Source of the DNA: a virus
Reading direction: 5' to 3' (one strand)
Length of the DNA: 22,649 nucleotides
IMG/VR virus record: IMGVR_UViG_3300023180_003441
Span: 1-22,649 of that record
Below the pieces are notes generated by a model. That model made no database searches, was not told the origin of the DNA, and saw only the letters and a list, made by a program, of their open reading frames with translations. The translations under genes and the position numbers were made by a program. Shown here in pieces: positions 4,760-6,303 of the stretch (its first letter is position 1; the number at the start of each line of letters is the position of its first letter).

Positions 4760-5136
4760 TGAACCCTTTTAATTATGTTACTAGTATCAATGATACTAAA
4801 AAAGATATTATGATTGATGATATGGCTGAGAAGTCATATAATAGTTTTATGGTCAATAGATCATTAAGCTACTTTAATGACACGGCGGTCTTGGCCAATG
4901 TCATGAATCAATACCACCATTGTGATAATAAACTTCAATATCATTTTTTGATAAATACCATCAGAAAGCGTAAACGATTTTCGAAATGGATGAAACCAGA
5001 AACTGAGAGTGATATTGAGGTGATTAAACAATACTATGGCTATAGCAATGAGAAAGCCAAACAAATACTTCATCTCCTATCACCTGAACAAATAACTATA
5101 ATAAAACAGAAGGTGAGTAAAGGTGGAAGAGGCTAA
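4759..5136 (+). CDS. 62: gp62-like clamp loader small subunit
   Basis: Non-ATPase subunit that joins four gp44 copies in the T4-type clamp loader. At 125 residues it is shorter than T4 gp62 (187), and similarity is weak except for the central segment where FLINTIRKRKRFSKWMK corresponds to T4 YLMAAVPRGKRYGKWAK. The assignment rests on that segment plus position between gene 44 and regA. The C-terminal region of T4 gp62 seems reduced. It overlaps the glutaredoxin gene by one base and runs past a potential GTG start for regA. Confidence 0.85.
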   Translation: MNPFNYVTSINDTKKDIMIDDMAEKSYNSFMVNRSLSYFNDTAVLANVMNQYHHCDNKLQYHFLINTIRKRKRFSKWMKPETESDIEVIKQYYGYSNEKAKQILHLLSPEQITIIKQKVSKGGRG

Positions 5137-5161
5137 CTTAATTCAATGGAGTCCAACAGAG

Positions 5162-5533
5162 ATGTTGGAAGTGACTTTAAATGATCCAGAAGATTTTTTA
5201 AAGGTAAGAGAGACACTAACACGTATTGGTGTAGCATCTCGCAAAGATAAAAAACTATTTCAATCATGTCATATCTTACATAAACAAGGGCGTTACTTTA
5301 TTGTCCACTTTAAAGAGTTGTTTATGTTAGATGGTAAAAAGGCTAATCTCGAAGAATCAGATATTCAAAGACGCAATACTATTGCTACACTAATGAGTGA
5401 TTGGGGATTGGTCGAAATACAGGACACATCTAAAGCAGCAGATTGTGCTCCTTTGAGATTGATTAAAATATTACCGTTTAAAGAAAAGGATGAGTGGGAG
5501 TTATGTCCCAAATATAACATTGGCACGAAATGA
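5162..5533 (+). CDS. regA: RegA translational repressor of early genes
   Basis: RNA-binding protein that blocks translation start of many phage early mRNAs, including the clamp and clamp-loader genes in T4. From the ATG at 5162 the product is 123 residues, almost exactly the T4 length (122), and starts MLEVTL where T4 has MIEITL; GGAG lies 10 bases upstream. A GTG at 5123 would add 13 residues and overlap gene 62. Strongly conserved segments are PEDFLKVRETLTRIG, the SCHILHKQG stretch followed by IVHFKE, and the end EWELCPKYNIG. Placement after gene 62 and ahead of gene 43 is as in T4. Confidence 0.95.
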   Translation: MLEVTLNDPEDFLKVRETLTRIGVASRKDKKLFQSCHILHKQGRYFIVHFKELFMLDGKKANLEESDIQRRNTIATLMSDWGLVEIQDTSKAADCAPLRLIKILPFKEKDEWELCPKYNIGTK

Positions 5534-5555
5534 ATAACAGAAGTTCAAATAAATC

Positions 5556-5584
5556 GTGACTAATGGTCCAGATCCTATTATAAT
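5556..5584 (+). promoter_or_regulatory. Possible sigma70-type promoter before hsp20
   Basis: GTGACT (5556-5561, four of six matches to TTGACA), a 17-base spacer, then a perfect TATAAT (5579-5584). It lies in the only sizeable gap after regA and just upstream of a late-promoter octamer, so the hsp20 transcription unit could be read both early by the host sigma factor and late. The -35 box is weak. Confidence 0.45.
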
Positions 5585-5589
5585 TTAAA

Positions 5590-5597
5590 TATAAATA
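5590..5597 (+). promoter_or_regulatory. T4-type late promoter octamer
   Basis: The exact sequence TATAAATA, the consensus -10 element of T4 late promoters (read by the gp55-type sigma with clamp and gp33-type coactivator). It is in a non-coding gap, on the coding strand, and transcription would start near 5603, right at the first hairpin of the hsp20 leader. In an AT-rich genome an octamer can occur by chance, but the location supports function. Confidence 0.55.
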
Positions 5598-5601
5598 ATG
5601 T

Positions 5602-5625
5602 TGCAATGCGGATGGTCCGGTTGCA
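5602..5625 (+). other. Leader hairpin 1 of hsp20 mRNA
   Basis: TGCAA-TG-CGGA, a TGG loop, then TCCG-G-TTGCA: two helices of 5 and 4 bp separated by a small internal loop. It is followed by TTTATTCTT rather than a clean U-run, so it is a weak terminator candidate for the upstream operon. As the 5' hairpin of a multi-hairpin leader it fits the usual layout of ROSE-type elements, where upstream stems support the thermosensing one. Confidence 0.5.
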
Positions 5626-5629
5626 TTTA

Positions 5630-5650
5630 TTCTTGCTTGTAAAAGGAGAA
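5630..5650 (+). promoter_or_regulatory. ROSE-like RNA thermometer candidate covering the hsp20 ribosome binding site
   Basis: The 5' arm TTCTTGCTT (5630-5638) pairs with AAGGAGAA (5643-5650), closing a GTAA loop, which is of the GNRA tetraloop type. All bases of the 3' arm, including the whole AGGA core of the Shine-Dalgarno sequence, are paired; one G (5635) is bulged and one pair is U-G. The arm contains UUGCU facing AGGA, which is the hallmark of ROSE thermometers that control bacterial small heat-shock genes. The start codon is four bases after the stem. Pairing is directly visible; temperature response is inferred. Confidence 0.6.
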
Positions 5651-5654
5651 AACT

Positions 5655-6119
5655 ATGACAGGCGTACAATCACTATTTCCACGTTCATCTTTTGTTGGCT
5701 TTGACCATCTACTCAATGAACTGGACTATGTAGCTAAACACTCATCAGATAACTATCCCCCACATAATATTCTTAGAACAGGTGATCACGATTACCTAAT
5801 TGAATTGGCTGTGGCTGGATTTAGTAAGGACGAACTTAACATTGAAGTTAAGGATCGTACACTTACTGTTAGAGGTGAACATGTAAGTAAGGGTCGCGAA
5901 TACATTCACCGTGGTATTTCCACCAAGAAGTTCAAACGCACCTTTAGGCTGTCCGAACACGTAAAAGTAAACGGAGCAGACTTAGTAGACGGAGTATTGT
6001 CAGTAGAACTGAAATATGAAGTTCCAGAAGAACTGCGTCCTCGTAAAATCGAAATCGGTCATTACGAGGAATTAACAAATGACACAGACACTAAAGAGCT
6101 TCTTCAAGAAGCTGATTAA
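5655..6119 (+). CDS. hsp20: Small heat shock protein, Hsp20/alpha-crystallin family
   Basis: ATP-independent holdase chaperone, 154 residues, like the IbpA-type proteins of bacteria and the Hsp20 genes of marine T4-like phages. The N-terminal arm (1-35) contains FDHLLNEL as in IbpA; the alpha-crystallin domain covers about 36-126 with KKFKRTFRLSEHV and the A-x-x-x-DGVLSVEL signature at 108-119; the C-terminal IEI at 132-134 is the I-x-I oligomerisation motif. AAGGAG lies 8 bases before the ATG but is buried in a hairpin. The last 41 bases overlap the following DUF1127 gene in another frame, so the two are probably translated together. Confidence 0.95.
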   Translation: MTGVQSLFPRSSFVGFDHLLNELDYVAKHSSDNYPPHNILRTGDHDYLIELAVAGFSKDELNIEVKDRTLTVRGEHVSKGREYIHRGISTKKFKRTFRLSEHVKVNGADLVDGVLSVELKYEVPEELRPRKIEIGHYEELTNDTDTKELLQEAD

Positions 6120-6303
6120 CGACTATCAGATGGCCAAAGCCGTTCGTCAAACTGAAAACGAATTGCGTAAGCTAACTGATCAAGAATTGAACGATATTGG
6201 TATTGCAAGGGGTGATATTTATTCTATCGCCAGACAAGATATTGATATGAAAAAATCACATCTTATCTCACCTTTTAATCCTAACCTAAAAGGATTTGTC
6301 TAA
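6079..6303 (+). CDS. DUF1127 (YjiS-like) small protein
   Basis: A 74-residue protein with the DUF1127 core LRKLTDQELNDIGIARGDI at residues 29-47, the arginine-rich small-protein family abundant in Alphaproteobacteria. In those bacteria members have been linked to RNA turnover and to phosphate and carbon metabolism; the role in a phage is unknown. The start is inside the end of hsp20, with GAGGA about 9 bases upstream. The N-terminal part (residues 5-28) is a basic amphipathic helix. The stop overlaps the next start as TAATG. Best explanation is a host-derived gene kept by the phage, possibly to adjust host metabolism or RNA. Confidence 0.85.
   Translation: MTQTLKSFFKKLINDYQMAKAVRQTENELRKLTDQELNDIGIARGDIYSIARQDIDMKKSHLISPFNPNLKGFV

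Follow-up and report, generated by a model that had tools for sequence, protein, structure and literature searches.

A conserved two-hairpin leader, probably a ROSE-type RNA element, precedes hsp20 in marine phages

The hsp20 locus and its leader

We analysed a virus record of 22,649 bases, a fragment of a T4-like marine phage, which we refer to as the window throughout. The gene order at the locus is regA then hsp20, and all features described here lie on the plus strand. The gene preceding the leader element, regA (5123-5533), encodes a translational repressor (PF01818, E 4e-43; phrog_242), and hsp20 (5655-6119, with its AUG at 5655) encodes a small heat-shock protein of 154 amino acids (Pfam PF00011, E 5.6e-18; phrog_432). 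Hsp20 was matched in 508 phage records, mostly those of cyanophages, and is widespread in marine T4-like phages. A small DUF1127 protein (6079-6303) begins within the 3' end of hsp20, and it is possible that it is translated from the hsp20 message.

A two-hairpin leader spans window positions 5602-5650. Its downstream member, hairpin II (5630-5650), contains the hsp20 Shine-Dalgarno (SD) sequence, AAGGAG at 5643-5648, which was read from the sequence and is conserved in an alignment of 94 leaders. Sequence reading and folding both give two strands, UUCUUGCUU with AAGGAGAA, interrupted by a single bulged G5635: UUGCU (5633-5637) pairs with AGGA (5644-5647) across that bulge. The lower pairs are U5630-A5650, U5631-A5649, C5632-G5648, U5633-A5647 and U5634-G5646, and the upper pairs are C5636-G5645, U5637-A5644 and U5638-A5643, closed by a GUAA loop at 5639-5642. 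A preliminary description of the locus had proposed this SD-pairing hairpin with its GUAA loop and the UUGCU motif with a bulged G opposite AGGA. Both proposals held, the pairs being readable from the sequence and reproduced by folding, and the bulged-G column being invariant in the 94 leaders. The GUAA (GNRA) loop that it noted is incidental: loop length and sequence vary across the 94 aligned leaders, and we reject the GNRA loop as a feature of the element. The extent it gave was also incomplete, in that it missed the upstream hairpin, which covaries better.

This upstream hairpin, hairpin I (5602-5625), is formed by a UGCAAU/GUUGCA stem, a bulged G5608, a CGGA/UCCG stem and a UGG loop. Its bulged-G column is likewise invariant in the 94 leaders, and the bulged G is placed alike in the Rfam ROSE_3 family and in the E. 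coli ibpA ROSE_2 element. The U-G pair adjoining the bulge also occurs as C-G and U-A. Upstream of hairpin I lies a T4-late-promoter-like box (5590-5597), an exact match to TATAAATA. The same TATAAATA box is found in 74 of 131 leaders, with a looser form in 15, another TATA-like sequence in 19 and none in 23, and the median distance from the end of the box to the UG of hairpin I is 9 nt. A TATAAATA-type box and its spacing to the transcript start resemble the T4 late promoter. We infer that hairpin I is probably situated at the start of the transcript.

Fold energy by itself does not set hairpin II apart. Its stability is ordinary (z -0.99; 30 of 200 shuffles of 5626-5657 were equally stable), and 5 of the 27 window genes with a recognisable SD, among 30 open reading frames taken as genes, have an SD predicted to be more paired at 20 C than that of hsp20. 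Hairpin I (z -2.06; 5/200 shuffles as stable) and the whole leader (z -1.91; 9/200) are more unusual. Hairpin II is real nonetheless, and it is conservation and covariation, not fold energy, that lift it above chance.

Conservation and covariation among relatives

The 80 nearest viral hsp20 loci were fetched by protein, and leader DNA was available for 79 of them. In all 79, UCUUGCUUG is followed by the SD. A broader collection of 134 distinct leaders combined these protein-fetched relatives with motif-pattern matches and 21 named phages. Here U(U/C)GCU precedes the SD in 132 of 134, a count to be read with the knowledge that the set was partly fetched by the UCUUGCUUG pattern. Specifically, one portion (L083-L202) was fetched with the pattern TCTTGCTTG..AAGGAG..ATG, which has at least 120 matches, so that the presence of the motif in those leaders is circular; 104 of the 120 pattern matches are at hsp20 starts, and the other 16 look like chance. 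The two leaders of the 134 in which U(U/C)GCU is missing are those of the hsp20 genes of S-B68 and S-TIM5 (L206 and L212). The S-B68 leader keeps a UUCG hairpin and has ACGCU in place of U(U/C)GCU.

In 131 of the 134 distinct leaders a hairpin I of this shape could be parsed; 117 of the 131 have UG at the bulge, and the mean parse score is 19.7 against 8.2 in shuffles. The parse failed, among the 134 examined, for L206, L212 and L126. Separately, four viral-contig Hsp20-like genes (L108, L126, L146 and L152) have UCUUGCUUG before the SD and a first hairpin of another shape.

For the covariation analysis, 35 of 131 rows were removed as near-duplicates and L108 and L146 were excluded for their differently shaped first hairpin, leaving 94 leaders. 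Standard pairs occupy 91.0% of cells in this alignment compared with 75.1% when shuffled, both partners of a pair have changed in 224 cells compared with 72.7 in shuffles, and the covariation score is 0.405 compared with 0.148. Not one of 500 shuffles reached the observed pairing fraction, number of both-side changes or covariation score. When the partners were slid by one to three columns, no more than 57 both-side cells and a score no higher than 0.127 were obtained. Absence of covariation, or of conserved UUGCU/AGGA pairing, in homologous leaders had been named in the preliminary description as what would refute the proposal; both are present, and the proposal passes this test.

The signal is unevenly divided between the hairpins. 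Hairpin I accounts for 197 of the 224 both-side changes, which fall at 7 of its 9 pairs, and hairpin II for 27. Little covariation is visible in hairpin II because the ribosome fixes its SD side. The motif itself alternates between UUGCU and UCGCU among the aligned leaders, and the outermost pair of hairpin II is A-U in 47, U-A in 19 and unpaired in 26 of the 94. In a wider set of 306 leaders, partly chosen by the T[TC]GCT motif, the outer-pair association within the MTG/MTS clade has a Fisher odds ratio of 9.6 (p 2.8e-8), a value that is uncorrected for relatedness. The counts given below for residues at the Arg93 position of Hsp20 and for codons complementary to the leader core draw on this wider set as well. 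On the coding side, the third positions of hsp20 codons 2 and 3 (ACA GGC) are near-fixed in the window's clade, the glycine codon contrary to the codon use of these genes.

Distribution in phages and SAR11

Scanned with R1, a covariance model of the element, 14 of 18 phage records give a match at the hsp20 leader; 13 of these 14 are members of the model's training set. No match elsewhere in the 18 falls below E 0.38. Stricter filters were used in the R1 scans of the 18 phages and of SAR11, and in the ROSE_3 scan of the 18 phages, with the consequence that weak matches were lost; Phosso and MED4-213, both present in the 94-leader alignment, were missed by R1 in the 18-record scan. Matches lie before hsp20 in phages of Synechococcus, Prochlorococcus, Pelagibacter and Methylophilales. 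Further loci were fetched by protein, using other hsp20 queries. Among those of the Pelagibacter phage HTVC103P type, R1 matches 78 of 80 (L330 is truncated and L395 has no match), and among those of the P-SSM2 type also 78 of 80, the remaining two being without leader DNA. Two T4-like sets gave 78/80 and 44/45, the misses again lacking leader DNA. The Sinorhizobium phage Phosso type is more mixed: 39 of 64 loci match where the hsp20 frame begins (E<0.001), 12 match weakly (E 0.04-1) and 12 do not match, and one locus (L515) has a confident match, E 0.00054, away from the hsp20 start. The Phosso-type set and both T4-like sets share some contigs with the earlier ones (L502, for example, is the contig of L067, L541 that of L186 and L621 that of L141). 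The element precedes hsp20 in most of the related marine phages examined.

The element is also found in bacteria. We sampled 79 genomes, drawn from a larger group, of the SAR11 family to which a Pelagibacteraceae MAG belongs (placement per record title), and R1 matches 50 of them. Of the 51 matching places, 50 precede hsp20, which confirms 49 genomes; one place (L717) is unconfirmed. In a separate search, 80 bacterial hsp20 loci were fetched with the Melnitz-3 protein, and 10 of them match R1 at E<0.01. Each of the ten matches falls where the hsp20 frame begins, and five are in Pelagibacter or Pelagibacteraceae records. Most Sphingomonadales hsp20 loci among the 80 have no R1 match, and an Rfam search of 20 of the 80 loci at E 1 returned no ROSE family. 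Since R1 matches only 10 of 80, the modelled element is not universal in bacterial small heat-shock genes.

Two records with bacterial names merit separate mention. In the genome of Rhodobacteraceae bacterium Water_Bin34 (G006, stretches L674-L678, from the record set of L236) there are eight R1 matches at E<=1, and the five stretches that were read hold hsp20 genes of differing types, one of which (L674) is 73.5% identical to a query and has a window-type leader. This pattern suggests that phage contigs were binned with the bacterium. A contig labelled Nonlabens xiamenensis (L304) has a cyanophage-like leader with a UUCG loop before hsp20, possibly through transfer or mislabelling.

Relation to known ROSE elements

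Formal membership of an Rfam ROSE family is not reached. The whole window has no Rfam match at the gathering cut-off, and no ROSE model matches the window leader in a search of 5530-5720 at E 10. The candidates that did appear in that interval (rli34, TtnuHACA17, LSU_trypano_mito, preQ1-II and freshwater-2) are far below cut-off and were taken as chance. In nine phage records, ROSE (RF00435) has no match and ROSE_2 (RF01832) has five weak ones, none at cut-off; in P-SSM2 this model matches nowhere but at the hsp20 leader (13.9 bits, E 0.6), and the other four weak matches are not at hsp20. As a positive control, E. coli ibpA was recovered by ROSE_2 at 100.4 bits.

The ROSE_3 model (RF02523) comes closer. 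It aligns over its full length, model positions 1-69, to the leaders of the Methylophilales phage Melnitz-3 (34.1 bits), Prochlorococcus phage MED4-213 (29.2 bits) and Synechococcus phage S-SKS1 (27.9 bits). It matches six of 18 phage records, in each of which its best-scoring position (E 1.6e-6 to 0.17) falls in the hsp20 leader. The gathering cut-off of 43 bits was not reached in any of the 18, the best score being 34.1, and weak ROSE_3 matches also occur in 14 of 14 control genomes, none above cut-off.

In Pseudomonas, short ROSE elements are built of two hairpins, the second of which pairs U(U/C)GCU with the SD, and they give a heat induction of 3.3- to 8.3-fold (PMC3669281). The phage leader resembles ROSE_3 and the Pseudomonas ibpA thermometers (PMC3669281) in having two hairpins, in the position of the bulged G of hairpin I and in preceding a small heat-shock gene, as well as in the lower flanking C-G pair, present in 83 of 94 phage leaders. 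It differs in the upper flanking pair, which is U-A in 89 of 94 phage leaders instead of G-C, in its carriers, which are phages and SAR11, and in having a late-promoter-like box in the place of the sigma32 promoter of Pseudomonas. With ROSE_2 (RF01832) of E. coli ibpA it shares the UCGCU/SD hairpin and a bulged-G hairpin immediately upstream, but the ROSE_2 model does not match phage leaders above chance. The cyanobacterial hsp17 and Anabaena thermometers also control small heat-shock genes, and the Anabaena SD is described as being controlled by a ROSE-like sequence (PMC4166951); unlike the phage leader, the cyanobacterial hsp17 element has only one hairpin (PMC4166951). Lambda cIII and SPbeta blyA are likewise phage mRNA structures reported to respond to temperature (PMC4166951, PMC11182007), but they belong to other genes and are not described as ROSE (PMC4166951, PMC11182007), and lambda cIII is shut by heat, not opened (PMC4166951).

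The leader satisfies the ROSE criteria of U(U/C)GCU-SD pairing, a predicted bulged G opposite the SD, an upstream hairpin and a downstream small heat-shock gene. Because its layout, bulged G, U(U/C)GCU motif and small heat-shock gene match the short ROSE thermometers, we consider the ROSE reading well supported; the ROSE-like interpretation put forward in the preliminary description is upheld by motif conservation, by covariation and by the end-to-end alignment of ROSE_3 to three phage leaders. The sequence, the predicted structure, the covariation, the association with hsp20 and the architecture that the leader has in common with ROSE_3 and ROSE_2 are all shown. Taken together, we think it likely, with a probability of roughly 0.78, that the leader is a short two-hairpin cis-regulatory RNA of the ROSE type, with the temperature response and the control of translation remaining inferences.

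Proposed mechanism

By analogy with experimentally studied ROSE elements, the U(U/C)GCU motif around its bulged G would make the stem of hairpin II heat-labile. In the cold, hairpin II would close off the SD and ribosomes would mostly be kept away; on warming, its weak stem would open and Hsp20 would be made. Translation control, temperature as the signal and a benefit to the phage are all inferred, and the suggestion that the leader releases the chaperone when the infected cell warms, made in the preliminary description, likewise remains an inference, as no temperature response has been shown in an infected cell.

Predicted folding gives limited guidance here. The fold energy of 5626-5657 is -9.2 kcal/mol at 5 C and -3.6 kcal/mol at 37 C. 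Over 131 leaders, AGGA is predicted to be unpaired with a median probability of 0.01 at 5 C, 0.13 at 37 C and 0.27 at 50 C. The predicted opening with temperature is shallow and gradual and depends on where the RNA is taken to end, and ViennaRNA omits the non-canonical pairs of ROSE elements. When the coding start is included, the predicted fold can switch, leaving only A5644 and G5645 of the SD paired, and the competing SD-freeing fold is then often predicted to be the more stable.

Alternative explanations

One possibility is that the leader of the window's clade switches between two states and that the coding start is part of the control. In such a switch GCUUG would pair either with the SD (closed) or with CAGGC of codons 2-3, forming an alternative hairpin B that mostly frees the SD; in the window, ACAGGC of hsp20 codons 2-3 (5658-5663) can pair with GCUUGU (5635-5640). 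In its favour, 101 of 105 MTG genes have GGC at codon 3, whereas GGC accounts for 134 of the 964 glycine codons at other positions. The five hairpin B pairs are kept in 8 GCUUG leaders that have CAAGC, CGAGC or UAGGC, and over 5602-5670 at 37 C hairpin B is predicted at -17.8 kcal/mol against -13.5 for hairpin II (fold A). Against it, CAGGC is also found in 16 distinct leaders with a core other than GCUUG, nine GCUUG leaders of other hsp20 types lack complementary codons, and the cyanophage and Pelagibacter-phage leaders checked mostly have 0-4 of the five hairpin B pairs. Moreover, over 5602-5700 hairpin II and hairpin B come within about 1 kcal/mol of each other, and hairpin B encloses the AUG and might repress translation in its own right. 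On balance we consider such a switch possible but rather unlikely. A bolder, joint reading is no more than possible. It holds that one ROSE-type thermometer, travelling with hsp20, occurs in marine phages of unrelated kinds and in SAR11 hosts alike, and that the T4-like clade of the window has turned it into a two-state switch, with codons 2-3 and the SD competing for one strand. The dosage of the phage chaperone would then track the temperature of the sea or the stress of infection independently of the host's heat-shock sigma factors.

Alternatively, the leader could be mainly a binding site for Hsp20 or the host's IbpA, mediating autorepression until misfolded protein captures the chaperone, so that the signal would be aggregation and not heat. 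IbpA of E. coli acts through the 5' UTR to repress its own mRNA, for which it requires Arg93 (PMC10474464). Of 149 readable phage Hsp20s that are not of the window type, 143 have R at the position of Arg93, and the position of Y34 is Y or F in 13 of 13 aligned proteins. However, window-type Hsp20s have K at the Arg93 position in 125 of 145 cases, the window included, and R93K is repression-defective in E. coli (PMC10474464). With Lys at this position in the window type and Arg in the other types, autorepression is plausible in many phages and is not predicted for the window. We found no binding data for phage Hsp20. We regard this explanation, too, as possible but rather unlikely.

The remaining alternatives are very unlikely. 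Hairpin I is G+C-rich and in the window is followed by UUUAUUCUU, as would suit an intrinsic terminator after regA with the SD hairpin incidental, but we reject this reading because the 8 nt 3' of hairpin I average only 42% U over 131 leaders (and are often A/C-rich in cyanophages), a promoter-like box lies upstream, and the bulge and hairpin II are conserved. A ligand riboswitch, a RegA site or another protein site unrelated to temperature, for which the one argument is that RegA is a translational repressor encoded next door, is rejected because the element accompanies hsp20 without an adjacent regA (for example in P-SSM2 and HTVC115P) and in SAR11-family genomes, has no confident R1 match elsewhere in 18 phage records and fits the ROSE_3 architecture.

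Significance

In the open-access literature that we searched, mostly judged by title and the start of the abstract, we found no ROSE element described in a phage or in SAR11, and the statement in the preliminary description that no phage-encoded ROSE element was known holds within those bounds. Phage thermometers as such are not new. That of lambda cIII has been described (PMC4166951), and very few are counted: SPbeta blyA is presented as the second phage thermometer, the first being that of Altuvia et al. 1989, with a sigma70 element of a Caudoviricetes phage added in the same paper (PMC11182007). The word 'thermometer' is absent from two papers on cyanophage small heat-shock proteins (PMC3827213, PMC5028025), an RNA survey of P. 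ubique mentions neither heat shock nor thermometers in its main text (PMC2704228), and four further papers (PMC6429828, PMC11109978, PMC2864753, PMC2965389) mention thermometers without hsp20 or ROSE where searched. Nor did we find, in the literature searched, any account of how the dose of phage Hsp20 is set.

With a conserved leader of the ROSE type, temperature-responsive translation encoded by phages could be put to the test in isolated systems, such as the Synechococcus phages S-PM2 and Syn9 and the Pelagibacter phage HTVC103P. If the ROSE reading is true, the best-known family of RNA thermometers would be extended to phages and SAR11, and the outcome of infection could be tied to the temperature of the sea.
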